Source: Candidatus Thermoflexus sinensis (GTDB lineage: Bacteria > Chloroflexota > Anaerolineae > Thermoflexales > Thermoflexaceae). Taken from it: a DNA stretch of 36,092 bases. Under the pieces are notes generated by a model. That model was not told the origin of the DNA and did not search any database. It saw nothing but the letters and a program-made list of their open reading frames with translations. The stretch spans positions 1-36,092 of the forward strand of contig JAEVEY010000079.1 of assembly GCA_016842045.1 (NCBI GenBank), written 5' to 3'. Below are positions 5,901 to 36,092 of this stretch, piece by piece. The translations under genes were made by a program, and so were the position numbers. Positions within the stretch are counted from its first letter, which is position 1. Every line of letters begins with the position of its first letter.

Positions 5901-7114
5901 CGCCACACGAGGCCGCAGATGGAGACCACCGAGGTGCCCTGCTCATCCGCCGGGCAGAGGGCGTAATCGACTTTCTCTCCGGTGGTCGGCTCCAGCACGC
6001 GCAGGGCGAGGTAGATCGGGGAGACCCCACACACATTGTTGCGATCTTTGGTCCGTCGGATCTCCGCGAAGAAGCCGGCGGCGTCCCCGGCCACCATGCG
6101 TTCGATCAGAGCCTCATCATCCGCCTTCAGGCGGGCCCGTCCCGGAAGATCCAGCGGGCGACCGCCGAAGGCCGGGCCGACATGGGCCAGATCCCCGGCG
6201 GCCACGATCACCGCCCGGCGCCCGGCGATGGCTGCCCGCAGGGTCTCGATGAAGCGGACGATCGCGGGATCGGAGATCGGATCCCGATCCTCCTGAATGA
6301 AGGACATCAGAGGGCCGCAGAGGATGGGCACCAGTTCCACCGGCTTCCCCTCCCGCATCGCGTGCAGCCACACCGCGGCCAGCTCGATGGAATGCTCCCC
6401 CCGATGGCGGAGCTCGCCGGCGAAGGCCGCCTCCTCCCCCAGGGCCTGAGCCAGGGCGTCCACCACCGACAGCGCAGTGGGCAGCACGCCAAAGGGTGTG
6501 GCGTAGTGCTGCCGGGTCAGGGTGATCGACCGATCCTCGCCATAATGATCCGTCCCCAGGATGACCGCCAGATCCGCCTCCCGGACGAACGGGGCGGCCC
6601 GCCTCCAGACCCGGGCATAGGTCCGACCTCCCCGGGCATAATCGATATGTGGGCTCACCAATCCCCGCCCGTCTTCTTCCGGATCCTCCCCAGAGGCTTC
6701 CTCCTCAAATCGACGGATCAACTGGCGCAGGGCCGTCGGATCTTCCGGGTAGACCTCTTCCGCCAGCATGGGGGGACGGAAGGGGGCCCGGCGGTAGATC
6801 TCCAGCGCCCGGGCCTGGGCCTCACGGAAACGCTCGTTCTCCAGCAGGTAGAGCTCATCCAGCGTCGCGATCAGCGAACGGAGCGTTTCCTCATTGACAC
6901 GGACGCCGTAGCGCACCATCAGGGCGGCGCGGATGGCCCGCAGGTCCCGTGTGCCGTCGCACAAAGCCAGCGCCGGCGCCAGGGTCTGGGGGATCATCAC
7001 CATCTGTTCCGATAGCCGGAGAGGATCCCGCACCACAACATATTGGCGACCATTGCGAACGATAGGGCGCAGATCCACCGGGCGAAGTCGGGGATAGCGC
7101 GCTGGATCGTCCAT
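5897..7114 (-). CDS. MEMO1-family protein (AmmeMemoRadiSam system protein B)
   Basis: The C-terminal ~255 residues of this 405-aa protein match the MEMO1 family. It has SPHIDYARGG (His156), LGTDHYG (His190), GEHSIE (His241), GDLAHVG (His311) and NNVCG (Cys362), the histidines and cysteine that line the metal-like pocket in the family. Residues 1-110 form an extra N-terminal region with a helical stretch (LCDGTRDLRAIRAAL) reminiscent of PqqD-like domains; this is tentative. The ATG at 7114 follows AGGAGG at six bases. The usual partners of the family (AMMECR1, radical SAM) are not in the window. The gene is coupled by 4 bp to a glycosyltransferase. Biochemical function is unknown. Confidence 0.85.
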   Translation of the reverse strand: MDDPARYPRLRPVDLRPIVRNGRQYVVVRDPLRLSEQMVMIPQTLAPALALCDGTRDLRAIRAALMVRYGVRVNEETLRSLIATLDELYLLENERFREAQARALEIYRRAPFRPPMLAEEVYPEDPTALRQLIRRFEEEASGEDPEEDGRGLVSPHIDYARGGRTYARVWRRAAPFVREADLAVILGTDHYGEDRSITLTRQHYATPFGVLPTALSVVDALAQALGEEAAFAGELRHRGEHSIELAAVWLHAMREGKPVELVPILCGPLMSFIQEDRDPISDPAIVRFIETLRAAIAGRRAVIVAAGDLAHVGPAFGGRPLDLPGRARLKADDEALIERMVAGDAAGFFAEIRRTKDRNNVCGVSPIYLALRVLEPTTGEKVDYALCPADEQGTSVVSICGLVWR

Positions 7115-7139
7115 CACGATCCTCCTGCGGATCATGGTC

Positions 7140-7224
7140 GGACTTACACGGTTCGTTTCCCGTGGGGGATTTTGGGGGCGGAGCCATTCCGTCCCACCTT
7201 TAGAGCTTTCAACTGCATAACTTC
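7140..7224. mobile_element. MITE-like element, short copy without nested hairpin
   Basis: The ends are GGACTTACACGGTT (7140-7153) and AACTGCATAACTTC (7211-7224), imperfect inverted repeats. The interior, read on the opposite strand, aligns with both sides of the copy at 16209-16346 (for example AAGCTCTAAAGGTGG and GGGAAACGAAC), but lacks the ~55-bp hairpin present there. It fills nearly the whole spacer between the MEMO start and the aldo/keto reductase stop, whose TAG overlaps its end. Confidence 0.7.
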
Positions 7225-8027
7225 TAAGCTGGAAAATTCGCCTCGATCCAGGCGACATCCTCCGGATCTAAAGCAAAATCCAGCGCGGCGATGTTCTCCC
7301 GAAGGTGCTCAACGCGCTCGGTTTTAAAGATGAGGATAACATCCCGTTGCCGGGCCAGGAAGTTCAGGATGATCGAATAAGGGCTCCGCCCGTATCGGGC
7401 GGCGATCCGCTCGAGGCCCCGCCAGCGGGGGCTGCGCCGGGGGATCCGGCCCTCCCAGAACGGCGAATAGCCCGAAACCGTAATGCCGGCCTCCCGGCAG
7501 TAAGGCAGGAGATCCCGCTCCATCCGACGGTGGGTCAGGTTGTATTCCACCTGATCGTTAACCAGCGCGTAAGGCTGAAACAGCGCCTGAGCCCGGCGGA
7601 GCTCACGAACGCCGAAATTGCTCACCCCCACGAACCGCACTTTCCCATGTTCGATCAGCGCCCGGAACGCCCGGAGCGTTTCCTCCAGAGGGGTATCCCG
7701 TTCCAGCCAGTGCAGCAGATAGAGATCGATGTGAGAGGTTCCCAGCCTCCGAAGGCTCCGCTCGCAGGCAGCCAGGGTCCCGGCGTAGGTGGCATGCTGA
7801 GGGGCCACCTTGGTGGTCAGGAAGACCTGCTCCCGAATCCCGCGGATCGCTTCCCCCACGATCTCTTCCGCCCCCGGATAGATCTCGGCGGTATCGATAT
7901 GGAAGACCCCCATATCCACCGCGGCCCGGATGGTCTCCCGCATCGCCGCCGGATCGCGAATGTTCCAGGTTCCCAGGGCCAGGTTCGGCAGTTGAACTCC
8001 AGTGCGTCCCAGCTCCACCGTCCACAT
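7224..8027 (-). CDS. Aldo/keto reductase
   Basis: This is a cytosolic NAD(P)H-dependent oxidoreductase (267 aa) with a TIM-barrel fold. The catalytic tetrad is visible as Asp45, Tyr50, Lys73 and His106 (motifs FHIDTAEIY, TTKV, YLLHWL). It also has GVSNFG near residue 137 and the NDQVEYN strand. At 267 residues it is complete and typical of the prokaryotic 2,5-diketo-gluconate-reductase-like branch. The substrate is not predictable. The ATG at 8027 has only a weak GAGAT site. It is flanked by a MITE-like element downstream and by a 130-bp spacer upstream after the moeA fusion. Confidence 0.9.
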   Translation of the reverse strand: MWTVELGRTGVQLPNLALGTWNIRDPAAMRETIRAAVDMGVFHIDTAEIYPGAEEIVGEAIRGIREQVFLTTKVAPQHATYAGTLAACERSLRRLGTSHIDLYLLHWLERDTPLEETLRAFRALIEHGKVRFVGVSNFGVRELRRAQALFQPYALVNDQVEYNLTHRRMERDLLPYCREAGITVSGYSPFWEGRIPRRSPRWRGLERIAARYGRSPYSIILNFLARQRDVILIFKTERVEHLRENIAALDFALDPEDVAWIEANFPA

Positions 8028-8157: not shown

Positions 8158-10143
8158 TCAGAATGCCGCCAGCCGGGCAACCTCCCGCCCCATCTCCTGG
8201 ACATCGTAGCCGGGCAGGGCGGCGACCGCAGCCCGGAACCGCGCGTCCTGCAGGAGCTCCAGCACCGGTTGGAACCACGGATCCTCATAGAAGGCCAGCG
8301 GGATCACCAGATCGTAACGCTCAAGCGCCAGGGGGATGAAATCCAGCCCCACGGCAGCGGCTGCCGCACGGATCCCCAGGCCCACGTCCGCCCGGCCGCT
8401 GGCCACCGCGGCCGCCACGGCCAGATGGGTCAGCTCCTCACGCTCGTAGCCTGAAATCATGCTCGGGGAAATGCCCAGGCGCTGGAGATAATAATCCAGA
8501 AGAATACGGGTCCCTGCCCCCCGCTGGCGGTTCACGAACCGCACATCCGGCCGCGCCAGATCATACAGATCCCGAATCCCTTTCGGATTCCCCGGGGCCA
8601 CCATCAGGCCCTGCTCCCGATGAGCCAGGGTGACCACCACCACGGGCACTCCGGCGAGATACCGTCGGATATAGGGCAGATTATATTCACCGCTTTCCGG
8701 ATCCAGAAGGTGGGCGCCGGCCAGATGACATTCCCCCCGCCGGAGGGCGATCAGGCCTCCCAGACTGCCCGCGTTCGCGCTCTGGAGCCTTCGATCCGGA
8801 TAACGTTCCGCCAGGAACTGGGCCATCAGATCCAGGGCCATATCATGACTGCCGATCGCCAGGATCGTCCCTTCAATCTCTTCCACACGGGTGTAAAGCT
8901 CAATGGAAACCATCTGTCCCTGATCGTATCCCTCCACAAACCGGGGGATCCGCAGGATCCCATCCGCTCGCACCAGAGAGGAAAGAACTCCCGCTCCCCG
9001 GGAGAGGGGTGCCGCCACATAGCGTTCGCCCACCCGACCCACGGTCACCCGTACCCACTCCTCATCGCCCAGCGGGGAAAGCAGCTTGCGGGTGAGCACC
9101 GCGGAAAGGCGTGGCCGCCGTTGGGGCGGGCGGCCCAGCCAGCGGGCGAGCAGGGGTTCCACAAAGATCTCTCCAGTGAGGGCCGCCGAGACCGGGAATC
9201 CCGGGACCCCGATGACGGGGACGGGACGCCCATCGACCTGGAGCATCCCCAGGATCACGGGATGGCCGGGGCGCACGGCCACCCCGTGAACCAGGAGAGT
9301 GCCCAGGGTGGAGACGACCCGCGCGGTGAAATCCTCACGGCCCGCAGAAGAACCCGCGTTGATGAGGACCAGATCGTGAGCGCGGGCCGCTTCCCGGGTT
9401 GCCTCGAGCAGACGTTCGAAGTCGTCGGGGATGATCGGGAAACGCGTGGGGAGTCCGCCCCACTGGCGGATCTGCGCGGCCAGCACCAGGGAATTGAATT
9501 CAATGATCTCTCCTGGCCGCACCCCCCGCGCTGCGGCCTGTTCGGGGGGAATCAATTCCGTCCCGGTGGGAAGGATGGCCACCCGGGGCTGACGGCGCAC
9601 GCAGACGTCTGCGTAGCCACATGCGGCGATCACCCCCAGATCCACGGGCCGCAGACGATGGTTGGCCGGCAGCACCAGCTCGGCAGCGGCGATGTCCTCG
9701 GCGACCGGACGGACGTTCGCCCAGGGAGCGACCGGTTGATACAGGGTGATCCGGGTGGCCCGTTCCGGCGCTTCCGCATCGAACTGCACCTGCTCCACAG
9801 GAACCACCGCGTCCGCCCAGGGGGGAAGCGGATCCCCGGTATCCACATAACAGGCCCCTTCTCCCACATCGGCCGGGTGAACGGGAAGCACGCAGGGGTG
9901 GGTTTCGGTGGCGCCCACGGTATCCTGGGCGCGAAGGGCGAAACCGTCCATTGCGGCAGCCGGATAAGGGGGAACTGAAAGCCGCGCCCAGATCGGCTCC
10001 GCCGTGATCCGTCCCAGCGCCTGATCCAGGGGCACGCGCTCGCCCGGGAAAGGCCCATCCAGGCCGACCTCCGCCAGCGCTTGAAGGAAGCGCGCCCATG
10101 CTTCCTCCAGGGGGATATCCTCCAGATAGATTCGACGGCCCAT
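8158..10143 (-). CDS. moeA: Molybdopterin molybdenumtransferase MoeA fused to a molybdate-binding-like domain
   Basis: The first ~400 of 661 residues are MoeA, which inserts molybdate or tungstate into adenylylated molybdopterin. Visible motifs are AAAMDGFAL, DTGDPLP, PTGTELI, NAGSSAGREDF and GVPGFPVSA. From about residue 425 a second domain begins (ILAIGSHDMALDLM, NAGSLGGL, FVNRQRGAGTR, GRADVGLGIRAAA); this is the PBP-type domain also found alone or behind MoeA in COG1910. There is no signal peptide, so it acts in the cytosol, probably binding molybdate, tungstate or a related ligand. The ATG at 10143 follows GGGGAG; a GTG 15 bases upstream is possible. No Mo/W enzyme is encoded in the window. 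Confidence 0.88.
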   Translation of the reverse strand: MGRRIYLEDIPLEEAWARFLQALAEVGLDGPFPGERVPLDQALGRITAEPIWARLSVPPYPAAAMDGFALRAQDTVGATETHPCVLPVHPADVGEGACYVDTGDPLPPWADAVVPVEQVQFDAEAPERATRITLYQPVAPWANVRPVAEDIAAAELVLPANHRLRPVDLGVIAACGYADVCVRRQPRVAILPTGTELIPPEQAAARGVRPGEIIEFNSLVLAAQIRQWGGLPTRFPIIPDDFERLLEATREAARAHDLVLINAGSSAGREDFTARVVSTLGTLLVHGVAVRPGHPVILGMLQVDGRPVPVIGVPGFPVSAALTGEIFVEPLLARWLGRPPQRRPRLSAVLTRKLLSPLGDEEWVRVTVGRVGERYVAAPLSRGAGVLSSLVRADGILRIPRFVEGYDQGQMVSIELYTRVEEIEGTILAIGSHDMALDLMAQFLAERYPDRRLQSANAGSLGGLIALRRGECHLAGAHLLDPESGEYNLPYIRRYLAGVPVVVVTLAHREQGLMVAPGNPKGIRDLYDLARPDVRFVNRQRGAGTRILLDYYLQRLGISPSMISGYEREELTHLAVAAAVASGRADVGLGIRAAAAAVGLDFIPLALERYDLVIPLAFYEDPWFQPVLELLQDARFRAAVAALPGYDVQEMGREVARLAAF

Positions 10144-10213
10144 CGGGGAACTCCCCACGAAGAAATCCTAACCAGAGGGTATTTTATCTGGGAATGCAAC
10201 CTGCCACAGGGGC

Positions 10214-25706: not shown

Positions 25707-26075
25707 TTAAAACTCCAGTCCAGCCTCACGGGCTGCATCGGCCAGGGCCTTCACCCGGCCGTGGTATTTGTATCCGCCCCGATCGAACACCACCTTGCGG
25801 ATCCCCTTCGCCAGGGCCCGCTGAGCGATCAGGCGGCCCACCAGGCGCGCTTTCTCCGTCTTGGTCAGGCCATCCAGCTGCCCCCGAAGCTCCGGATCCA
25901 GCGTGGAGGCCGCTGTTAGGGTGATCCCCTTCGTGTCATCAATAATCTGAGCATAAATGTGCTTCAGGCTCCGGAAAACCGAAAGCCGGGGCCGTTCCGG
26001 AGTGCCGAACACTTTCTTTCGGACCCGTAAATGTCGCCGGCGGCGTCCTTCATCCCGCGGATGCTCCCAGCTCAT
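25707..26075 (-). CDS. rplR: 50S ribosomal protein L18
   Basis: L18 (122 aa) binds 5S rRNA. The motif [24 protein letters not shown] near residue 13 and the [24 protein letters not shown] end are canonical. GGAGGAATGG precedes the ATG. Spacers of 187 bp upstream (after rplF) and 130 bp downstream are unusual for spc operons. Confidence 0.97.
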
Positions 26076-26262
26076 CGACCATTCCTCCTGGGGGCCAGGA
26101 TTTTATCCCTGAGCCCGAGGATTTCAATGTATTTAGGACCTGCCCGGAATAACCCATTGGGGAAAACGGATTGTCCCTTCTCCCGTCTTTCCCGATCACC
26201 ATGGCCCAAAGGGCCCTGGTGCAGGTCATGACCTTCAGCCCCTCGACCGGCACCCAACCGCC

Positions 26263-26832
26263 TCACTTGGCCTTGCCGGCCTTCCCGGCCTTGCGCCGGA
26301 TGGGCTCGTCCTCCCAATGATCGCCCTTCCAGTAGGTGTAACGGATCCCTTTGCCCTTGTAAGGTTCCGGCGGGCGCAGGGCCCGGATCTTGGCCGCAAC
26401 CTGGCCTACCAGCTGTTTATCGATGCCCGAGACCGTGATGATGCGATCCCGCGTGTTGACTTCAAAGGTGATCCCTTCGGGGGGCTCCACAATAATCGGG
26501 TGGGAATACCCCAGATATAGCACGATCGCCTTCCCCATCGGCTCCGCCCGATAGCCCACACCCTCAATGCGCAGATGCTGCTGGAACCCCTGAGTCACCC
26601 CGGTCACCATATTCGCCAGCAGGGCCCGGGTCAGGCCGTGGAGGGCCTTATGTTTCCGATCATCGGATGGCCGCCGAACCACCAGATGGCCATCCTCGAT
26701 GGCGATCTGCATGGACGGATGGAAGGTTTGGGTCAGGGTTCCCTTCGGCCCGGTAACCGTCACGGTGGAACCTTCAATCCGCACCTGGACCCCGGGCGGG
26801 ATTGGGATCGGTTTCTTGCCTACACGCGACAC
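26263..26832 (-). CDS. rplF: 50S ribosomal protein L6
   Basis: L6 (189 aa) has two repeated domains; it begins with a GTG-coded Met and [16 protein letters not shown] and carries the C-terminal [12 protein letters not shown] motif. The start follows GGGGAGGG. Twelve bases separate it from rpsH. Confidence 0.97.
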
Positions 26833-26844
26833 GGTTCCCTCCCC

Positions 26845-27255
26845 TTACCAGACATAACAGATGACCTCGCCGCCGACGCCCAGACGGCGGGCCTGCTTAT
26901 CCGTCAGGATGCCCTTCGGAGTGGAGAGGATCGCAATCCCCATTCCGCTCATCACCAGCGGGATGTCCTCCTTGCCGACATACACCCGACGGCCGGGTTT
27001 GCTCACCCGTTTCAGGCCGGAGATGGCCGGCTTCCGGAAACGGCGCTCGCCGATATATTTCAACTTGATGATCAGCTTCGGCTGCGGCCGATCATTTGTC
27101 ACCTCGAAATCCTCAATGTAACCCTCCTCCTTGAGCACCCGGGCGATGGCCACCTTGATCTTGGAACTGGGGATGGCCACCCGGCTATGCCCCACCATGG
27201 AAGCATTTCGGATTCGGGTGAGCATGTCGGCGATCGGATCCGTCACAGCGCTCAT
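26845..27255 (-). CDS. rpsH: 30S ribosomal protein S8
   Basis: S8 (136 aa) binds the central domain of 16S rRNA and in some bacteria represses the spc operon. It begins [18 protein letters not shown] and ends [26 protein letters not shown], both typical. The ATG at 27255 was chosen from this N-terminus. Confidence 0.97.
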
Positions 27256-27332
27256 CGTTTTCACTCCTATCCAGATATTCCTCATTGGATGCCCAGCGCC
27301 TTCCCCATACCGGATTCGGTATGGCTGGAAAT

Positions 27333-27515
27333 TTACCAGCTGGCCTTGCGAACACCGGGAATGAGCCCCTGAAGGGCCAGCTCCCGGAAGCAAATGCGGC
27401 ACAGCCCAAACCGTCGGATATATGCGCGGGGCCGGCCGCACCGGCGACACCGGTTCCGCACCCGCACCTTGTATTTCCGCCGCATCTCCCGATAGATCAT
27501 GCACTTGCGCGCCAC
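27333..27515 (-). CDS. rpsN: 30S ribosomal protein S14, type Z
   Basis: S14 (60 aa) is the short zinc form with Cys23, Cys26, Cys39 and Cys42. The start is a GTG at 27515 behind AAGGAGG, giving [10 protein letters not shown], which matches the family length exactly; upstream in-frame sequence is not needed. Confidence 0.96.
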
Positions 27516-27546
27516 GTCGTCCTCCTTAGATCCGACCTCCGTCGTT

Positions 27547-28113
27547 TTAACCCCTGCGGAACGGCATGCCGAGCAGCTCCAGCAGCCGCCGCGCCTCCGC
27601 ATCGGTTTTCGCCGTGGTCACAATGGTGATCTCCATCCCCCGGACTTTATCCACCTGACTGTAATCGATCTCCGGCCAGACCAGCTGCTCCCGCAGCCCC
27701 AGGGTGTAATTCCCCCGGCCGTCGAAGGAATCGGGCGAGACCCCCCGGAAATCCCGGATGCGTGGAAGAGCCACATTGAATAACCGGTCCAGGAAGGCCC
27801 ACATTCGATCCCCCCTCAGGGTCACCTTGACCCCGATGGGGCGCCCGGCCCGCAACTTGAAGGCCGCAATGGATTTACGGGCCTTGGTGATCAGCGGCTT
27901 CTGGCCGGTGATGGTAGCGATGTTCTGGACCGCATAATCCAGGGCTTTGGGATTCGTCACCGCTTCCCCCACCCCCACGTTCACCACCACCTTCCAGATC
28001 CGGGGGACCTCCATGATGTTTCGATAGCCGAACTCCCGCATCAGGGCCGGCCGAACCTCCTCCAGATAACGTTGCTTTAAACGCGGAACCACCTTGGTGG
28101 TTGTCTCCGCCAT
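27547..28113 (-). CDS. rplE: 50S ribosomal protein L5
   Basis: L5 (188 aa) binds 5S rRNA and contacts S13 and P-site tRNA. It shows [21 protein letters not shown] near residue 12, VVNVGVGEA and the C-terminal [27 protein letters not shown]. The ATG at 28113 fits; 20 upstream in-frame codons are spacer. Confidence 0.97.
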
Positions 28114-28173
28114 CCTGATCGCCTCCCCAGATCTCGCTGGATACAAAGAAGGGTTAGCTGTACAGAATCCCAA

Positions 28174-28497
28174 TCAGACAAAAGTCGCTTTGCACCTTTT
28201 GCACTGACGAAGCTTCCGCCCCCCCGCCTCCACCACAAAGCCCACGCGGGTGGGCTGGTTGCATTTCGGGCAAACCAACATCACGTTGGAGATGTGGATC
28301 GGCGCCTCGAATTCGATGATGCCACCCACCTGAGATCGCCCGGTCGGTCGGGGTCGCTGATGTTTCTTCACAATGTTCACCCCGGCGACCACCACACGGT
28401 TTTCCTTCGGGAGCACCCGCAAGACTTCTCCCTGAGCGCCCCGATCCTCCCCGGCAATCACCAGGACCTTATCCTTTCGCTTGATCTTAGCTGCCAT
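28174..28497 (-). CDS. rplX: 50S ribosomal protein L24
   Basis: L24 (107 aa) initiates large-subunit assembly. The N-terminal KOW region reads [21 protein letters not shown]; the C-terminus has a zinc-ribbon pattern Cys76, Cys79, Cys99, Cys102. Its ATG lies inside the reading frame of the HEPN remnant (11-bp overlap), with GGAGG ten bases upstream. It should directly follow rplN, but an MNT/HEPN module is inserted between them. Confidence 0.95.
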
Positions 28498-28633
28498 GAA
28501 TACTTTCCCTCCAGAAAAAAATCCGCAGATCCGGCAGGTGACACGCAAAGCAATCATCACCGGGCTCGAACACCCCCATATCCGCCTCAGCCTGCCGAAG
28601 CCAGCGCCAGGCCTCGATTTCACTCTGCTTCAT
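28487..28633 (-). pseudogene. Truncated HEPN-domain protein (HepT-like remnant)
   Basis: An ATG at 28633 opens a 48-codon frame beginning [19 protein letters not shown] and continuing with DDCFACH. The pattern W-L-R-Q-A-E-x-D followed by an aromatic/Cys-rich FACH stretch is the start of HEPN-domain proteins, which normally continue with QAAEKALKA and span ~110-140 residues. Here resemblance stops after about residue 32 and the frame ends inside the rplX start. The R-x4-6-H nuclease motif is missing, so it cannot be an active HEPN toxin. The ATG overlaps the nucleotidyltransferase stop by 14 bp, the typical layout of MNT-HEPN pairs. Confidence 0.68.
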
Positions 28634-28940
28634 AGAGCACGATCCCCTCCTGTTGGGCCACCCAACCCAGGCCGAACTCCTTCATCCGCTCGAATTCCTC
28701 CGGCGTATACACCAGGATCTCGGCCGGACGGCCAAACTCCACCAGGTAAGGAACCATTTCCTGAAGCCTTTCCATGAAAGAGCGATCGCTCCTTTTCACA
28801 AGGATCACATCATAGTCGCTCAGGTCGTCCGCCTCGCCCCGAGCGCGAGATCCAAACAGGAGGATCTTCTGCGGCCCGTAGCGCTTCAGCAAAGCGACCA
28901 GCCGCTCCAGCTCCGGATCTCCGATCATTCCTTTGCGCAT
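28620..28940 (-). CDS. MNT-type minimal nucleotidyltransferase (MntA-like antitoxin)
   Basis: This 106-aa protein has the polymerase-beta nucleotidyltransferase signature [16 protein letters not shown]: Gly30-Ser31 and metal ligands Asp42 and Asp44. The third acidic position is Glu74 ([10 protein letters not shown]), where Asp is more common. MntA proteins neutralise HEPN toxins by adenylylating them. It sits 15 bp after rplN and before rplX, on the same strand, replacing the normal short rplN-rplX junction. Its intended HEPN partner is only a fragment (28487-28633). Expression is assured by the ribosomal transcript. Whether it is active is unknown; all catalytic carboxylates are present in some form. 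Confidence 0.9.
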
Positions 28941-28955
28941 GGCGCCCCCGCTCTT

Positions 28956-29324
28956 TCACAGCACCTCAGGCGCCAGGGAGATGATCTTGGTGAAGCCCTT
29001 GTCGCGCAGCTCCCGGGCAACCGGGCCGAAAATCCGCGTCCCCTTCGGGTTGCCGAATTCGTCCAGGATCACCGCGGCGTTATCATCGAAACGGATCGTC
29101 GATCCATCAGGACGACGGTATTCCTTCGCCGTCCGCACGATCACCGCGCGCACGACCTCGCCCTTTTTCACCGTGGCGGTCGGGATCGCATCTTTGACCG
29201 TGGCCACCACCACATCCCCAACATAACCGTAACGGCGATAGGAGCCGCCCAGCACCCGGATGACCAGGATCTCCCGGGCGCCCGTGTTGTCTGCAACTTT
29301 CAGACGGGTCTCCTGCTGAATCAT
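28956..29324 (-). CDS. rplN: 50S ribosomal protein L14
   Basis: L14 (122 aa) forms an intersubunit bridge. The N-terminus [19 protein letters not shown], the [17 protein letters not shown] segment and the [19 protein letters not shown] end are canonical. The ATG at 29324 follows AGGAGG. It is followed by the inserted MNT gene instead of rplX. Confidence 0.97.
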
Positions 29325-29505
29325 GGATACGCCTCCTGCGATGCCATCCATGCATGGTTGTTCTAGAGTCCGGGATGCTCGGTTGCACTCCTGGCACAGC
29401 ACTCCGGGAAGCTCCAGAGAGCCCCTTCGTTATCGAGGGACCGGGCCGCCTCCGGAGGCCTGTCCGCAAAGCTCCCGCCCTGGTCTCCAAGCCGGCGGTG
29501 GGACG

Positions 29506-29811
29506 TTACTCGGCCAGGATCTCCTCGCCGGGTAACTGTTCAGGCACAGGCTCCACCGGCTTCTGAGCCCGTTCCAGGATCGCTTCCACGATCCAGCGCT
29601 TGCGGCGGCTCAGCGGGCGGGATTCCACGATCTGCACCAGATCCCCCATGCGGGCCAGATTCCCCTCATTATGGGCCATGAACTTGCGGCGACGGCGGAT
29701 CACTTTTCCATAAAGAGGATGGCGCACCAGCTCCTCCACCGTCACCACCACGGTTTTATCCATCTTGTCGCTGGTCACTCGCCCGATAAAGCGCTTGCGC
29801 CGATCTTTCAT
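29506..29811 (-). CDS. rpsQ: 30S ribosomal protein S17
   Basis: S17 (101 aa) is an OB-fold 16S rRNA binder. MKDRRKRFIGRVTSDKMDKTVVV and the GDLVQIVESRPLSRRKRW motif are typical. The C-terminal ~20 acidic residues (PVEPVPEQLPGEEILAE) extend beyond many homologues. The ATG overlaps the rpmC stop as ATGA. A 181-bp spacer follows before rplN. Confidence 0.96.
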   Translation of the reverse strand: MKDRRKRFIGRVTSDKMDKTVVVTVEELVRHPLYGKVIRRRRKFMAHNEGNLARMGDLVQIVESRPLSRRKRWIVEAILERAQKPVEPVPEQLPGEEILAE

Positions 29812-30020
29812 CGCCCACCTCCCTGAGCCAGCTCCCGCTCCCGCATGATGGTCAATATGCGGGCGATATCCTTCCGCAAGGCACGGATCCGATTGACATC
29901 TTTGAGCTGGCCCATCATCCACTGAATCCGCAGGTTAAACAATTCCCGGCGGAGCTGCTCCAGTCGATTTCGAAGCTCCTCATCTGACCAGTTGCGTATC
30001 TCCTCAGGACGAAGGGCCAC
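29808..30020 (-). CDS. rpmC: 50S ribosomal protein L29
   Basis: L29 (70 aa) is a helical hairpin near the exit tunnel. It shows LRPEEIRNWSDEELRNRLEQLRRELFNLR and the NRIRALRKDIARILTIMRERE end. The start is GTG behind GGGAGGG. A 190-bp spacer separates it from rplP, where the genes are usually adjacent. Confidence 0.96.
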   Translation of the reverse strand: MALRPEEIRNWSDEELRNRLEQLRRELFNLRIQWMMGQLKDVNRIRALRKDIARILTIMRERELAQGGGR

Positions 30021-30210
30021 AGTTCCCTCCCTGCTGAATATCTGACGATCGAGATAACACCCTCTGCGATTTGCAAGCTACGCTCAGGAAAACACCCTGT
30101 ACACAGCTGGCCTCTCCATGAAGGAGCCCGGATGCAACCCTCAGAAGCCGTGGAAGGCCTGGGCGATCCGGCCTCTCTTGTACAGGCCAGCGGCGAGATC
30201 CTTTCCCGAA

Positions 30211-30633
30211 CTATCCGACCTGCTGTTCTTCAGCGGTGATAATCTGAGTGCGAATCGGCAGCTTATAGGAAGCCTGTCGCAACGCCTCATGAGCGATGTC
30301 TGCGCTCACTCCTCCGATCTCAAAGATAATGCGGCCGGGCCGCACCACGGCCACCCAGTGATCCACATTCCCCTTGCCTTTCCCCATTCGGGTCTCGGCC
30401 GGCTTACGGGTCACCGGCTTATCCGGGAAGACCCGGATCCAATATTTGCCGCGCTGACGGAGGAACCGGACGATGGCGCGGCGGGCCGCCTCGATCTGGC
30501 GGGCGGTCAACCAGCACGGCTCCAGGGCCTGGAGGCCATATTCTCCAAAAGCCAGCTCCACCCCCCGGCTCTCCTTGCCCTTCATGCGCCCCCGCATCTG
30601 CTTGCGATATTTGACCCGCTTTGGCATCAACAT
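30211..30633 (-). CDS. rplP: 50S ribosomal protein L16
   Basis: L16 (140 aa) lies by the A site. It shows [19 protein letters not shown], the [34 protein letters not shown] segment and the [24 protein letters not shown] motif. The ATG at 30633, three bases after the rpsC stop, has GGGGAGG upstream. Confidence 0.97.
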
Positions 30634-30636
30634 CGC

Positions 30637-31329
30637 TTAACCTCCCCGTTGCGCCGATGTCACCCGGGCAACCATCTCCGCCGTCTGCTGAACATAGGCG
30701 CCTGGCTCTGTATCCCCACGGTAGATCCAGACCTTGACGCCGATCTTCCCCCACTTGGTGATCGCTTCCGCCAGGGCGTAATCAATATCCGCCCGCAACG
30801 TGTGGCGTGGGACCCGCCCTTCCATCAGCGTCTCCGTGCGGGCCATTTCTGCTCCCCCCAGACGGCCCGAGACCGTGATCCGGATCCCCTTCGCCCCGGC
30901 GCGCATAGCCTGCTGGATCGCCCGCTTCATGGCCCGGGCGTGGCTGACCCGCTTCTCGATCTGCTGGGCGATGCTCTCGGCCACAATAGCCGCTTCCAGT
31001 TCGGGCTTGGGGACCTCCACGATCTCCACCCGGGCCTTCTTGCCAGTCATCTCCTCGATCGCCTGGCGCAGCTGCTTGATCCCCAGGCCTCGCCGGCCGA
31101 TGACGATGCCCGGACGAGCCGCGTGGATATAAAGATTAATCTGCTTGGGGAACCGCTCAATCTCAATTCGAGCGACCCCAGCCTCTTTGAGCTGCTCCTT
31201 TACAAACTGCCGGATCTTCAGGTCTTCATGGAGCAGCTCCACATACTCCCGGCCCTCGGCATACCAGCGGGCCAGCCAGTTCTTCGTGATCCCCAGACGA
31301 AAGCCGATCGGGTGAACTTTCCGACCCAA
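30637..31329 (-). CDS. rpsC: 30S ribosomal protein S3
   Basis: S3 (230 aa) is part of the mRNA entry channel. It shows GRKVHPIGFRLGITKNW at the start, the KH-domain motif GIVIGRRGLGIKQL (about residues 74-87) and GRLGGAEMARTE. The start codon is TTG behind GAGGAGG at five bases, an unusual codon for this gene. Confidence 0.96.
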   Translation of the reverse strand: MGRKVHPIGFRLGITKNWLARWYAEGREYVELLHEDLKIRQFVKEQLKEAGVARIEIERFPKQINLYIHAARPGIVIGRRGLGIKQLRQAIEEMTGKKARVEIVEVPKPELEAAIVAESIAQQIEKRVSHARAMKRAIQQAMRAGAKGIRITVSGRLGGAEMARTETLMEGRVPRHTLRADIDYALAEAITKWGKIGVKVWIYRGDTEPGAYVQQTAEMVARVTSAQRGG

Positions 31330-31380
31330 GATAACCTCCTCACGCGCAATGGATCCAGCCTTTCAATCGGCACCGCAGGC

Positions 31381-31725
31381 TTAACTCGCTCGCTCCTCCA
31401 GGACCACTGTGAGATGAGTGGTCCGCTTCAGGATTGGACGAACCCGGCCCCGGGCGGCGAAACGGACCCGCTTATATCGGGGCCCGTCGTCGGCCCGAAT
31501 ATCCACCACATAGAGGTCCGCAGGTGAGAGACCATAGTTGTTCTCCGCATTGGCCATTGCCGAGCGGATCAGCTTCTCGACATAGCGCGCTGCCTTCTTG
31601 GGTGTGAAACGCAGCACGCTCAAAGCCTCTTCAGCCCGCATTCCTTTAACCAGGTTGCAGACCAGGCGCGCCTTATAAGGCGAGATCCGGATATAACGGG
31701 CCACTGCCCGAACCCGATTCGCCAT
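31381..31725 (-). CDS. rplV: 50S ribosomal protein L22
   Basis: L22 (114 aa) lines the exit tunnel with its beta-hairpin. It shows YIRISPYKARLVCNLVKGMRAEEAL and, in the hairpin, ADDGPRYKRVRFAARGRVRPILKRTTHLTVVL. It ends ERAS. A 202-bp spacer separates it from rpsS upstream; that spacer holds an 8-bp stem (31870-31877 with 31891-31898). Confidence 0.97.
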   Translation of the reverse strand: MANRVRAVARYIRISPYKARLVCNLVKGMRAEEALSVLRFTPKKAARYVEKLIRSAMANAENNYGLSPADLYVVDIRADDGPRYKRVRFAARGRVRPILKRTTHLTVVLEERAS

Positions 31726-31927
31726 CGCAATCCCCCATCAATTCAAAAGTTTTTACATGACTTGTACAGCTGATTGCTGTTGGAGGAAGGGCACGGAAAC
31801 CTCTCCCCTTTATCCTCCCTCCCCACGATCCCCTCGGGCCGCGGAGGGCGGAGGGCTGGTTGCTAAGGAGGAGCCGGATATGGAGGGTGCCCGGCTCCAC
31901 TCCCAAGCCCCAAAGCAGCCGATCACC

Positions 31928-32209
31928 CTACCTGACTCCAGTTTTCTTTTCCTTAACCGTGTGACCGCGATAGGTTCGCGTCGGGGCGAACTCCCCCAGA
32001 CGGTGCCCGACCATCTGCTCAGTGATGTAAATCGGCACATGACGCCGCCCATCATGGACGGCGATGGTGTGCCCCACCATCTGAGGGAAGATCACCGAAG
32101 CGCGGGACCAGGTGCGGATGACCCGCTTCTCACCCCGGCGGTTCAGCTCTTCGATTTTCTTTAACAGCTTGGGATCACAATACGGACCTTTCTTTAACGA
32201 GCGTCCCAT
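31928..32209 (-). CDS. rpsS: 30S ribosomal protein S19
   Basis: S19 (93 aa) begins [22 protein letters not shown] and contains [50 protein letters not shown] in several conserved blocks. It is complete and ends TGVR. Its upstream spacer (266 bp after rplB) is one of the largest in the S10 part. Confidence 0.97.
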
Positions 32210-32319
32210 TCCCGATCACCCCCTTATGGTTTCTTCCCCACCTGCAGCTTGAATGGGCGCGGGGAGGAAGAAATCGTCAAGCTTGTTGGATGGCATTGCT
32301 GCAATGGATTCTGAGAATT

Positions 32320-32432
32320 CAGACAACCCGATCCGGCTGGGAAAGCAGGTTGTCCCTCCCCCCTCCCTTTTGGGGCGCGGGGAGAGGGGGAATACCGTCA
32401 CGCTGGGAAGCTGTTGAGCAGCCTTCCCAGCC
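32320..32432. repeat. Hairpins in the rplB-rpsS spacer
   Basis: Two structures lie in the spacer 32210-32475. GACAACC (32322-32328) pairs with GGTTGTC (32348-32354). GCTGGGAAGCTG (32402-32413) pairs with CAGCCTTCCCAGC with one bulged base. Between them lies a C-run and a G-run of the type seen in the 42-86 hairpin. No gene is present. Confidence 0.6.
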
Positions 32433-32475
32433 CGAAAAGCCCTCTGCCGTGATCACCTCACCGGCTTGCCAGATA

Positions 32476-33312
32476 TCACTTCTTCTTCTGGCGACGCTGG
32501 ATAATGTATTTGTCTGTAGCCTTGTTGCGCCGCGTCTTCTTGCCCAGGGTATGCTTGCCCCAGGGCGTCTTCGGATAAGGCAGGCCAATCGGCGCCCGGC
32601 CCTCACCGCCGCCATGCGGATGATCCCGCGGTGACATCGCCGAGCCGCGCACCGTGGGGCGGATCCCCAGCCAGCGCTTGCGGCCCGCCTTGCCCAGGCG
32701 GATATTCGCATGCTCCAGGTTCCCCACCTGACCGATGGTCGCGTAGCACTCCAGGCGGACCTTCCGGATCTCCCCGGAGGGCAGGCGCAGGATGGCGTAT
32801 CCCTCCTCTTTCCCCAGCAGCTGCGCGACCGCGCCCGCCGCCCGGGCGATCTGACCGCCGTGCCCGGGATACAGCTCCACGTTATGCACCAGCGTCCCCA
32901 CCGGGATATTGGCCAGCGGCATAGCATTGCCGACTTTAATCTCCGCCTGAGGCCCACTCATGACAATGTCCCCAACCTGCAGGCCCAGGGGTGCCAGGAT
33001 GTAACGCTTTTCCCCATCCGCATATTGCAACAGCGCGATGCGGGCGGTGCGGTTGGGATCGTATTCGATGCTGATCACCTTCGCCGGAATACCTTCCTTA
33101 TCCCGCCGCTTGAAATCAATGATGCGATAAAGCCGCTTATGACCGCCGCCCCGGTGGCGGACGGTGATCCGGCCCTGGAAGTTCCGCCCCGCGTGCTTTT
33201 TCAAAGGAACGACCAGGGATTTCTCCGGCTCGTCCTTGGTGATTTCCTCGAAGGTGTAACCGGTCGCATTGCGGCGACCGGGCGTTGTCGGCTTGTAGAC
33301 TTTGATTCCCAT
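32476..33312 (-). CDS. rplB: 50S ribosomal protein L2
   Basis: L2 (278 aa) supports the peptidyl transferase centre. It begins [19 protein letters not shown]; the conserved [22 protein letters not shown] block near residue 218 holds the catalytically important His. The ATG at 33312 was chosen from the canonical N-terminus and the AGGAGGACCT site. Confidence 0.97.
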
Positions 33313-33392
33313 AGGTCCTCCTCCACCGCCTTTGGGCTCCTTCCCCGCCGAATCGACTGGTGGGGGCTGGGTCGCCAACCCATGCCCGGTCG

Positions 33393-33415
33393 GCTGGACC
33401 AGCCCCTGGTCCAGC
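33393..33415. repeat. Small hairpin in the rplW-rplB spacer
   Basis: A perfect 10-bp stem (33393-33402 with 33406-33415) with loop CCC lies in the 140-bp spacer. It resembles the other operon hairpins in compactness but has a different sequence. Confidence 0.65.
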
Positions 33416-33452
33416 GGTTCAACGGGGTCCCCGCTCCAAACGCCGCGGGCGC

Positions 33453-33761
33453 TTAGACCTCAAAGAGATCGATGCGCTGGCCAGGGGCGATTTTAACAAT
33501 CGCCTTCTTCCAGCCCGGGCGGCGCACCACCTGCTTGGGTTTGCTGCTGAGAATCCGCGCCCGCCAGTCCCGTCGTCGCTTGGCCGGGACGTTGATGATG
33601 CGCACGTCCAGAACGCGGACGTTGAAGATCTTCTCCACTGCCTCCCGGACCTGGTGGCGATTCGCCCGCGGATCCACCTCAAATACATACTGATTCATTT
33701 CCTTAAGCCGGGTGGTCTTCTCGGTGATCACCGGCCGTTTAATCACTTCGTAGAGATCCAT
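33453..33761 (-). CDS. rplW: 50S ribosomal protein L23
   Basis: L23 (102 aa) docks trigger factor and SRP at the exit tunnel. [19 protein letters not shown] and [24 protein letters not shown] are canonical. It follows rplD after 28 bp. Confidence 0.97.
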
Positions 33762-33789
33762 CTCCCATCCCCCCGCTCAGGGCTCTCCA

Positions 33790-34476
33790 TCAAGTCGATG
33801 AAGCCGATGACGCCGCCTCCGGCTGGGGCAGCGCAAACTTCTTCCGGATCACCGGGCGTGTCAGCCAATCTTCGATGACGGCCAACGCATCTTGCGGGAT
33901 AATCAACGTCTCATACTTAAAGAGATCGCGAATGTTCAAGCACATCGCGTGCAGATAGGCTACGTTCGGCAGATTCCGAACCGCCCGCTTCACGTTTTCG
34001 TTCGACCCGGCGAGCAGGATGAGGGCGCTCTTGCCAATGGGGAGCCGATCCAGGATCTCCTTCATTAACCGGGTCCGCGGCTCCGGCAGCTCCAGGCGAT
34101 CCAGGATCAGGATCTGGCCCTCCTTCGCTTTCACGGAAAGCGCCGAGCGCAAGGCCGCCCGCCGCATCTTCTTCGGCATCTTCTGCTCATAGCTACGCGG
34201 CCGTGGTCCGAACACCACCCCACCGTGATACCAATGGGGTGCATCCCGGCTCCCCTGACGGGCTCGCCCGGTATGCTTCTGCGGCCACATCTTACGGCTG
34301 CTATAATGCACCTCCCCACGGGTTTTCGTCTTATGGGTCCCCAGGCGGGCGTTGGCCAGCTGCCGGACCAGCGCCTGATGCATCAACGGGATATGAATGG
34401 GGGCTTCGAAGACTTCCGGTCGCAGCTCGATCTCCCCCACCTGCTGCCCCTCTATATTCCAGACCGGAACACGCAT
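33790..34476 (-). CDS. rplD: 50S ribosomal protein L4
   Basis: L4 (228 aa) lines the exit tunnel and in some bacteria represses the S10 operon. It contains the long loop KTRGEVHYSSRKMWPQKHTGRARQGSRDAPHWYHGGVVFGPRPRSY in blocks. The C-terminus has a low-complexity tail (EAASSASST). The upstream spacer to rplC is 281 bp. Confidence 0.97.
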   Translation of the reverse strand: MRVPVWNIEGQQVGEIELRPEVFEAPIHIPLMHQALVRQLANARLGTHKTKTRGEVHYSSRKMWPQKHTGRARQGSRDAPHWYHGGVVFGPRPRSYEQKMPKKMRRAALRSALSVKAKEGQILILDRLELPEPRTRLMKEILDRLPIGKSALILLAGSNENVKRAVRNLPNVAYLHAMCLNIRDLFKYETLIIPQDALAVIEDWLTRPVIRKKFALPQPEAASSASST

Positions 34477-34567
34477 CGCAATGCCTCCTTGAACTTGTCC
34501 CTGAACGCCTTAATCTGGAGCTTTGTTGAAAATCCGCCGGTCTTCCTCTTCCAACTCGATTCCCGGG

Positions 34568-34650
34568 TTTGCTTCTCAGGGGAGATCTTTCAGGAGACAG
34601 GTGGGACCGCTTTTCAGCAGCCCACCTGTCTCCTGGACCCCCGAAGCAAA
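34568..34650. repeat. Compound hairpin in the rplC-rplD spacer
   Basis: A perfect 15-bp stem (34591-34605 with 34621-34635) with a 15-nt loop is enclosed by an outer stem, TTTGCTTC (34568-34575) with GAAGCAAA (34643-34650). It sits in the 281-bp spacer 34477-34757 which has no gene. It could influence transcription or mRNA processing between L3 and L4. Confidence 0.7.
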
Positions 34651-34757
34651 TCACTCCCTCCAGGGGCTTCCGGGAGTGGGGAGGGCGAAATTCGTCTCCA
34701 ATCTCAAAGTGTCATCTTGCCCCACCCCCGAAGTCCACCGTCGAGGGTATCATCCGT

Positions 34758-35399
34758 TCAATAAGGCCGCTTGGCCTGTCGAATCATCACCAGTCCGCCT
34801 CGGGGACCCGGGACGGCGCCTTTCAGGGCGATCAGATGGCGCTCCGGATCCACCCAGACGACCTGGAGGTTCCGGACTGTCACCCGCTCGTTCCCATAGT
34901 GGCCCGCCATGCGCTTCCCCTTCACCACGCGCCCTGGATCTGTGTTCGTGCCGATCGACCCGGGCGCCCGGTGGCGATCCGACTGACCGTGGGTTTTCGC
35001 CTGCCGGGCGAAACCATGGCGCTTGATCCCTCCCGCAAAGCCGCGCCCCTTGGACCAGCCGGTCACATCCACCCGTTCCCCGGGCGAGAAGATCGAGACG
35101 GTCAGCACTTGGCCTTCATGGTAGGAAGCCAGAGCCTCCGGGCCAGGGAGGCGGAGCTCCCGCAGCACCCGAAGCGGAGGGAGATTCCGCTTGAGCAGAT
35201 GTCCTAACTCGCCCTGGGTCAGCCGTCGGGGCTTTGTTTCCTCAAAGCCCAGCTGGATCGCCGCATAGCCGTCCCGCTCGGGCGTTCGCAGCTGCGTCAC
35301 ATAACAGGGCCCGGCCCGAAGAACCGTCACCGGGACCACCTCGCCCTGCTCGTTGAACATCTGAGTCATTCCAATTTTGCGAGCCAGCAAGCCTTTCAT
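34758..35399 (-). CDS. rplC: 50S ribosomal protein L3
   Basis: L3 (213 aa) is an early-assembly protein reaching the peptidyl transferase centre. It begins MKGLLARKIGMTQMF and carries GFAGGIKRHGFARQAKTHGQSDRHRAPGSIG in the extension. The ATG at 35399 was chosen from this N-terminus. Confidence 0.97.
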   Translation of the reverse strand: MKGLLARKIGMTQMFNEQGEVVPVTVLRAGPCYVTQLRTPERDGYAAIQLGFEETKPRRLTQGELGHLLKRNLPPLRVLRELRLPGPEALASYHEGQVLTVSIFSPGERVDVTGWSKGRGFAGGIKRHGFARQAKTHGQSDRHRAPGSIGTNTDPGRVVKGKRMAGHYGNERVTVRNLQVVWVDPERHLIALKGAVPGPRGGLVMIRQAKRPY

Positions 35400-35465
35400 G
35401 ACGGCAAACCTCCGCTGGGGACTGGTCACCTGTTCCGGCCCATCATCCCCTGAAATCCGCGCAAA

Positions 35466-35774
35466 TTAGATCTTGATTTCAATATCCACGCCCGCCGGCA
35501 GGTTCAGGCGCATCAGCTGATCGATGGTCTTGGGATCCGGATCCAGGACATCGATCAGCCGCTTGTGGGTGCGGATCTCAAAGTGTTCCTGGGAGTCCTT
35601 ATCGATAAACGGCGAGCGGATCACGGTGAACCGCTCCCGCTTCGTGGGGAGCGGGATGGGGCCGATGACCCGCGCGCCGGTGCGCTCCGCCACTTCCACG
35701 ATCCGGCGAGCGGATTCGTCCAGGATCCGATGATCGTATGCTTTCAGACGGATACGCAATCGCTGCTTGGCCAT
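35466..35774 (-). CDS. rpsJ: 30S ribosomal protein S10
   Basis: S10 (102 aa) also serves as NusE in antitermination. It begins [24 protein letters not shown] and ends in a [15 protein letters not shown] strand. It is the first complete gene of the cluster; the 226-bp spacer after tuf includes a G/C-rich stem (about 35944-35968) and an IS6-like motif. Confidence 0.97.
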
Positions 35775-35909
35775 AGGCCTCACCACTGTTTCTGAGATTG
35801 TGAGCGAAAACCCGCCCTGCTGCGATCCTGGCCGTGCCTGCTTGGGCTCAGCGTTTGCCCCTCCCCACGCCGCCTCGCAGCACGGAGAGGAGAGCCGACC
35901 AGGCCCCAG

Positions 35910-35923
35910 TTTGCAACAGAGCA
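35910..35923. repeat. IS6-like terminal motif, copy C
   Basis: TTTGCAACAGAGCA occurs here after CCCCACGCCGCC... and GGCCCCAG, the same order as at 4190-4253 and 21296-21356. It lies between tuf and rpsJ. Confidence 0.6.
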
Positions 35924-36000
35924 ACGAAAACCTGAAATTTGGACGGGAGAGAGGGACCCTCCCTCCCGGGTCATGTAGGCGGCTTATGGGGTCTGTGGGG

Positions 36001-36092
36001 CTAATCCAGGATGCGGGTGACCACGCCGGCCCCCACCGTCAGACCCCCTTCCCGGATGGCAAACCGCAGCCCCTCCTCAATCGCCACCGGCG
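36001..36092 (-). CDS. tuf: Elongation factor Tu, C-terminal end (partial)
   Basis: The last 30 codons ([16 protein letters not shown]..., ending TRILD and TAG) match the final beta-barrel of EF-Tu. The rest lies beyond the right edge. tuf directly before rpsJ is the standard str-S10 junction. Confidence 0.95.

Follow-up and report, generated by a model that had tools for sequence, protein, structure and literature searches.

A probably decaying HEPN-MNT insertion with an orphan antitoxin gene between rplN and rplX in Thermoflexus

Two classes of HEPN-MNT gene pairs (MNT, minimal nucleotidyltransferase) are distinguished in PMC7641770: Class I, in which the HEPN protein belongs to PF01934 or PF08780 and carries the motif RX4HXY, and Class II, in which it belongs to PF05168. 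In what that source gives on Class II, the MNT keeps the motif GSX10DXD, the toxins have a conserved tyrosine, and no RX4H motif was found. AMPylation of the RX4HXY tyrosine is shown there for the PF01934/PF08780 class, and the toxicity tests in its section on these pairs were done on Class I. Class II (PF05168 with PF01909) corresponds to the combination of MNT with HEPN-T/COG2250 treated in PMC2701414 and PMC3710099; the latter lists PF05168 under the name HEPN-T and notes that its histidine is in several cases replaced. A HEPN-MNT pair from Legionella is described in PMC11586414. Also, solo toxins and antitoxins are reported in PMC2701414 to make up more than half in the largest families, and that source discusses solo antitoxins and anti-addiction and mentions two Thermus thermophilus strains, one of which has its lysine operon interrupted by an MNT-HEPN pair while the other does not. 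Among the matches listed in a search of titles and abstract openings in open-licence PMC, there was no description of an MNT-HEPN pair in a ribosomal operon.

We have studied a locus of this kind in the window, by which we mean the whole stretch of 36,092 nt analysed here, and have compared it with its counterparts in a genus sample consisting of the window genome (G000) and eight other Thermoflexus genomes (G001-G008). We assign a probability of about 0.7 to the interpretation in which a Class II HEPN-MNT insertion is decaying at this locus and its orphan antitoxin is retained passively.

The MNT gene and the HEPN remnant

The genes rplN, MNT, a 48-codon frame and rplX follow each other in that order, all on the minus strand (Table 1). 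The rplN frame ends at 28956, which leaves a gap of 15 bp to the ATG-started MNT gene, and the 48-codon frame overlaps the MNT stop by 14 bp and the rplX start (28497) by 11 bp. An earlier note on this DNA, made from the letters alone, had described an intact MNT gene 15 bp after rplN, followed by a 48-codon frame with a 14-bp overlap at the MNT stop and an end in the rplX start; the coordinates of both frames, and the Pfam match of the first, bear this out.

Table 1. Features of the rplN-rplX junction in the window (positions are those of the window)
Feature	Position	Strand	Remarks
rplN (L14)	28956..29324	-	Upstream neighbour; TIGR01067 E 1.4e-55
Orphan MNT (minimal nucleotidyltransferase), 106 aa	28620..28940	-	GSX10DXD (G30 S31, ten residues, D42 x D44); third carboxylate E74
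48-codon chimeric frame: HEPN stump and spacer, end within rplX start	28487..28633	-	
HEPN toxin gene stump: start codon and about 22 codons	28566..28633	-	Match to G002 HEPN
Deletion junction	28565..28566	no strand	Net 442 bp of G002 arrangement gone
Remaining spacer ahead of rplX	28498..28565	-	49/70 alignment columns identical to G002 spacer end
rplX (L24)	28174..28497	-	Downstream neighbour; TIGR01079 E 1e-38

The spacer that remains ahead of rplX includes a ribosome-binding-like stretch, CTGGAGGGAAAG. A scan of positions 28100-29420 gave no promoter candidate and no terminator-like site on the coding strand; two terminator-like sites were seen inside rplX, solely on the strand opposite to the genes. 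Rfam searches at the gathering threshold gave zero matches in 26000-36092. Elsewhere in the window, we observed a 666-aa MoeA-type molybdopterin protein with a PBP-like domain at its C-terminus (8158-10158, minus strand) and a 453-aa frame with a C-terminal Memo-like domain (5897-7258, minus strand), the first ~160 residues of which have no Pfam match at E 1e-5.

The MNT protein matched Pfam NTP_transf_2 (PF01909; E 8.5e-8, 32.9 bits) above the cut-off of 21 and the NCBIfam MntA model (1.1e-5, 25.2 bits) below its type VII equivalog cut-off of 60. As judged from the sequence, its catalytic motif is complete. An AlphaFold model built with 32 aligned sequences had a mean pLDDT of 88.9, by which the protein should still fold, and placed residue 74 on a strand (73-78). 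When the predicted model was compared with the PDB by Foldseek, the best matches were 8xeo (E 6.6e-6, TM 0.70) and 8xeh, which are titled as an MNT antitoxin and a HEPN-MNT complex and which, judged by title and date, are probably the Legionella proteins of PMC11586414. The glutamate at position 74, in place of the third aspartate, had been regarded as an oddity in the earlier note. Among 79 related loci, which were kept out of 107 MNT relatives in a GTDB scan, this column is occupied by Asp in 67, Glu in 8 (the G002 copy included), Asn in 3 and Val in 1. Glu74 also occurred in 8 of the 33 scored loci of L001-L037, four of which are MNTs at rplN-rplX (G000, G002, G004, G005) and four of which lie elsewhere. 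Glutamate is an ordinary alternative at this column, and we reject the reading of Glu74 as a defect.

The same note took the 48-codon frame to begin like a HEPN protein and named a HEPN profile search as a check, a negative outcome of which it would have counted as a refutation. We observed no HEPN match when the frame alone was searched against Pfam and NCBIfam with a limit of E 10, at which the HMMER filters discard most matches above about 0.1. The search was negative because merely about 22 HEPN codons remain, and comparison with an intact gene was needed. Comparison of the junction in close relatives, which the note had also proposed, provided such a gene in G002, where a complete 140-aa HEPN frame (PF05168, E 2.8e-27) follows and adjoins the MNT gene with a short overlap. 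The first 22 residues of the stump are 77% identical to the full G002 HEPN (E 3.4e-4), and the window DNA is collinear with the G002 HEPN gene as far as position 28566, with a 1-nt gap in the last few bases of the stump. Five of the 25 columns that are invariant between the G002 HEPN and 11 homologues fall in the stump, and all five are kept in the window. Past position 28566, the 48-codon frame is not HEPN: its 46-nt tail aligned with the G002 post-HEPN spacer at a score reached by 14 of 1000 shuffles, as against 215 of 1000 for the HEPN gene. The HEPN-like start thus holds for the first ~22 codons and the remainder is spacer, including the letters FACH, which had been cited as HEPN and which lie past the breakpoint.

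Relative to G002, the rest of the HEPN gene and part of the spacer are absent (Table 1), and the alignment then picks up in the rplX spacer. The sequence TCGA is present at the window junction and close to each of the two G002 breakpoints, which would suit a deletion by short homology. From the intact pair at the G002 junction and the alignable deletion, we conclude that the toxin gene was lost by deletion, which left the antitoxin gene as an orphan, in agreement with the earlier proposal that a pair had entered the ribosomal operon and then lost its toxin. That the loss reflects faulty assembly of a fragmented genome is highly improbable: the window genome is in 212 contigs, but the junction is inside a 36-kb contig, the stump and spacer have diverged from G002 as the adjoining MNT gene has, and a toxin-less MNT junction is present also in G005, a one-contig genome.

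The junction in Thermoflexus and the wider distribution of the module

The nine genus members comprised one with the pair, one with MNT and a HEPN stump, one with MNT alone, one with a frameshifted MNT, one that breaks off in the MNT start and four without MNT. MNT lies between rplN and rplX in G000, G002 (91% identity), G005 (74%) and G004 (60%, frameshifted), and that three Thermoflexus genomes besides G000 have it at the identical junction, one as a frameshifted copy, is more than chance. No HEPN gene is present in G005 and G004, where no more than 20 bp separate the MNT stop from rplX; this junction is unlike that of the window. The frameshift in G004 (L040, G004:C54) results from a short deletion, and the gene is intact in its very close relative G005. 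With the rplX start in these lengths taken as an alignment estimate, the rplN-rplX gaps were 900 bp in G002, 458 in G000, 357 in G005 and 352 in G004, and, where MNT is absent, 172 bp in G006 (L044), 154 in G001 (L043), 114 in G008 (L042) and 78 in G007 (L046). A search for rplN was positive in all of 60 genomes and yielded 30 loci, 9 from Thermoflexus and 21 from other genera. In the other genera, the gap was at most 100 bp in 21 of the 21 junctions read, and three of the four MNT-less Thermoflexus spacers exceed the largest of these (100 bp).

In G003, the rplN contig ends 68 bp past rplN, and the bases after rplN are those of the G002 MNT start (16/16 nt; 0/300 shuffles); the match is limited to G002, since the score of this contig end against G005 was reached by 205/300 shuffles. 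The 85 bp at the contig end on the far side of the junction showed no similarity. Both G003 contigs, L045 (C216) and L187 (C43), break within the rplN-rplX junction, the former shortly after the 16-nt match, so that the MNT gene of this genome may contain a repeat or an insertion.

Searches of the MNT-less junctions for remnants gave nothing above shuffles in G006 and G007. Two kinds of shuffle were used for chained alignments with the G005 MNT, which formed part of 12 uncorrected comparisons, and the scores were reached by 5 and 10 of 500 in G001 and by 2 and 3 of 500 in G008; chained scores of these two junctions against G002 and G000 were reached by 21 to 342 of 500. Single-block scores were reached by 13/300 (against G002) and 26/300 (against G005) shuffles for G001, and by 33/300 and 36/300, respectively, for G008. 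Given these shuffle scores and the weak resemblance to the G005 MNT, the G001 and G008 spacers are not counted as MNT remnants.

In the GTDB scan, a HEPN match was found within 300 bp of the MNT in 67 of the 79 related loci; MNTs of this kind are thus normally paired, which supports the loss of a partner in the window. L14 and L24 beside an MNT relative were found, within the stretches fetched, in the G002 record only. Among 396 genomes of the class, seven had an MNT match at E <=1e-20, and four of these are the Thermoflexus copies. The closest relatives outside the genus (L099-L101; G066) are MNT-HEPN pairs. The G066 pair (L227, G066:C22), from another family of the class, has an MNT that is 81% identical to that of G002 and no L14 or L24 gene in the 3.3 kb fetched. 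The L099-L101 pairs (MNT 64-66%, HEPN 59-66%) come from MAGs labelled Armatimonadetes, Desulfobacca and 'bacterium', and L14 and L24 were likewise absent from the stretches fetched. Provided that those MAG bins are clean, the module seems to move between phyla, and L227 together with L099-L101 points to horizontal transfer of this MNT-HEPN subfamily. The plasmid collection that we searched held 25 records with an MNT relative, all of them below 60% identity, and no close plasmid source.

A tree of the genus built on up to nine ribosomal-protein genes had two clades, one of G000, G002, G003, G007, G001 and G008 and the other of G004, G005 and G006, with support of 57% for G000-G002, 64% for G004-G005 and 73% for the second clade. 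A single insertion would call for three later losses (in G006, G007 and the G001/G008 line), together with a disruption in G003. On the sequences at hand, a single vertical origin is doubtful. The MNT tree did not resolve the genus copies at rplN-rplX as one clade, with forks in conflict, and the G002 MNT is 81% identical to that of G066, from another family, against 76% to that of G005. Synonymous divergence between the clades was higher in MNT than in the ribosomal neighbours (G000-G005, 0.65 against 0.44, p 0.0006; G002-G005, 0.68 against 0.53, p 0.012), and did not differ within the first clade (G000-G002, 0.30 against 0.33, p 0.80). This higher divergence raised our estimate for two insertions at the same junction (one in the G000/G002 clade and one in the G004/G005 clade), or for a later replacement of one copy, from somewhat unlikely to only a little short of even odds. 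Against two events, the junction, orientation and position are all the same in both clades, one clade of rplN-rplX MNTs was not rejected (p-AU 0.313), synonymous sites are close to saturation, and recombination could have made the conserved flanks less divergent. Two insertions, replacement, or recombination of conserved flanks would each fit the divergence pattern, and two insertions are compatible with any of the explanations of MNT retention considered below.

Constraint on the MNT gene and its retention

Between G000 and G002, the MNT genes have 10 nonsynonymous and 23 synonymous differences (dN/dS 0.11), as compared with a dN/dS of 0.05 for seven pooled ribosomal genes at a similar dS (0.43 against 0.39). 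With G005 as the outside reference, and with 5 of the 33 differences left out as not polarisable, the window branch carries 6 nonsynonymous and 9 synonymous changes and the G002 branch 3 and 10 (Fisher 0.43). The window branch (6/15 nonsynonymous) is below the neutral expectation (p 0.003), although part of this may predate the toxin loss; the HEPN stump, with 20 codons, has too few changes for nonsynonymous and synonymous to be compared. The MNT differences between G004 and G005 probably postdate the toxin loss, because both share the toxin-less junction. They comprise 6 nonsynonymous and 7 synonymous differences, and G004 has the frameshift in addition; the corresponding counts for eight ribosomal genes are 2 and 29 (rplX being left out for unequal length; Fisher p 0.005). 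This ratio does not differ significantly from the G000-G002 ratio of 10 and 23 (Fisher p 0.33), and it is still below neutral (p 0.02). We read the pattern as weak constraint with ongoing decay, and do so with real doubt.

The earlier note had offered three fates for the orphan gene, namely domestication, action on other HEPN toxins, and recent decay. Decay is favoured here because the gene is frameshifted in G004, broken off in G003 and lacking at the junction in four congeners, and because of the ratio of 6:7 in the G004-G005 MNT genes against 2:29 in ribosomal genes. Counting against passive decay, the MNT gene is intact in two toxin-less genomes, G000 and G005, and the G000-G002 dN/dS of 0.11 would suggest some constraint.

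We consider it unlikely that the orphan MNT has been selected as an in-trans antitoxin, made constitutively with ribosomal proteins and directed against further HEPN toxins, whether the cell's own or those of incoming elements (anti-addiction); solo antitoxins and anti-addiction are among the subjects of PMC2701414. The intact catalytic motif and the dN/dS of 0.11 speak for such a role, and candidate targets are present: at E <=0.01, the window genome has 12 PF05168 and 7 PF01934 HEPN matches, besides 20 PF01909 matches. Ten of the 12 PF05168 genes lie beside a PF01909 match, and another, on C126, is at a contig edge. A PF05168 HEPN gene on C198 (1635-1997) and a PF01934 HEPN gene on C211 (2571-2927) have no PF01909 match on their contigs and are possible in-trans targets. 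However, the closest other HEPN of this genome shares only 45% identity with the G002 partner and has an MNT of its own adjoining, and the MNT is frameshifted in G004 and absent from the junction in four congeners despite 3 to 7 HEPN matches in each. Orphan MNTs are not rare in the window genome, since four of the 20 PF01909 matches (that of the window and those on C74, C9 and C8:18976) show neither a PF05168 nor a PF01934 match within 1 kb, the stump aside.

Recruitment of the MNT to a ribosome-related role, for example nucleotidylation of a ribosomal protein or assembly factor, would account for its retention within the operon. The constraint on the gene (dN/dS 0.11) would agree with such a role, as would its operon position, with the same direction, the 15-bp spacing to rplN and the absence of terminator-like sites on the coding strand in 28100-29420. 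It is nonetheless very unlikely, as the gene is patchily present and pseudogenised in the genus and the window MNT falls in the same sequence group as ordinary paired MNTs. A wider proposal, that in at least two Thermoflexus lineages the orphan MNT became a selected gene of the ribosomal operon after toxin loss and nucleotidylates HEPN RNases or a ribosomal target, is in our estimate rather unlikely. If it were true, MNT would be made in proportion to ribosome synthesis, and toxin restraint would be linked to growth rate. We regard slow decay as likelier than an antitoxin domesticated in this way and coupled to growth.

Under slow decay, the preferred reading, the events may be pictured as follows. 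A Class II HEPN-MNT (PF05168/PF01909) toxin-antitoxin-type pair would have been inserted between rplN and rplX in Thermoflexus. As long as the pair was intact, MNT would have neutralised HEPN, probably through nucleotidylation; both are known for other HEPN-MNT pairs. In the window lineage, as comparison with G002 shows, a net 442-bp deletion took the HEPN gene beyond ~22 codons and part of the spacer and spared the MNT gene and the sequence directly ahead of rplX. Any MNT protein made from the transcript of the ribosomal-protein genes would find no partner encoded at the locus; it would bring no strong benefit and would be carried along until it decays, as has apparently happened in relatives.

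The genus displays intact, stump, toxin-less, frameshifted and empty states together, and so offers a clear case in which a pair of toxin-antitoxin type enters an operon that ranks among the most conserved in the cell and decays there. The states suggest an order in which the toxin is lost first and the antitoxin later. Also, the toxin-less natural MNTs are material for asking whether orphan antitoxins are relics or in-trans protectors.

Comparison with described HEPN-MNT systems

With Class II pairs, as these are presented in PMC7641770, PMC2701414 and PMC3710099, the locus has in common the MNT family, the GSX10DXD motif, a PF05168 partner, a thermophile-linked subfamily and, as seen in G002, an MNT gene upstream of the HEPN gene with a short overlap. 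Unlike them, it has a mere stump of HEPN in the window and lies inside a ribosomal-protein cluster. With the HepT/MntA type VII systems described from Shewanella (SO_3166/SO_3165, PMC7641770) and Legionella (PMC11586414), it has in common the MNT fold and catalytic motif. The HEPN proteins of those systems are described as having RX4HXY with its tyrosine, whereas the G002 partner, of PF05168, reads RVVLGHSV, with R-x4-H followed by S-V and no tyrosine there; Tyr 91 and Tyr 96 do not vary among the 12 HEPNs aligned. The earlier note had placed the module with type VII pairs. The partner belongs to PF05168 Class II and not to PF01934/PF08780. Since a conserved tyrosine is reported in PMC7641770 for Class II toxins too, the assignment would be a reasonable extrapolation, and by analogy the module would work as type VII systems do.

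HEPN-MNT insertions and solo MNTs are already known, and it is the ribosomal site that is unusual. The nearest parallel in PMC2701414 is the lysine operon of Thermus thermophilus HB8, where an MNT-HEPN pair is likewise inserted in a housekeeping operon of a thermophile and is absent from HB27, so that its presence differs between relatives, as in Thermoflexus. In contrast to the HB8 case as given there, the operon concerned here is that of ribosomal proteins, and in the window the toxin gene was lost after the insertion.
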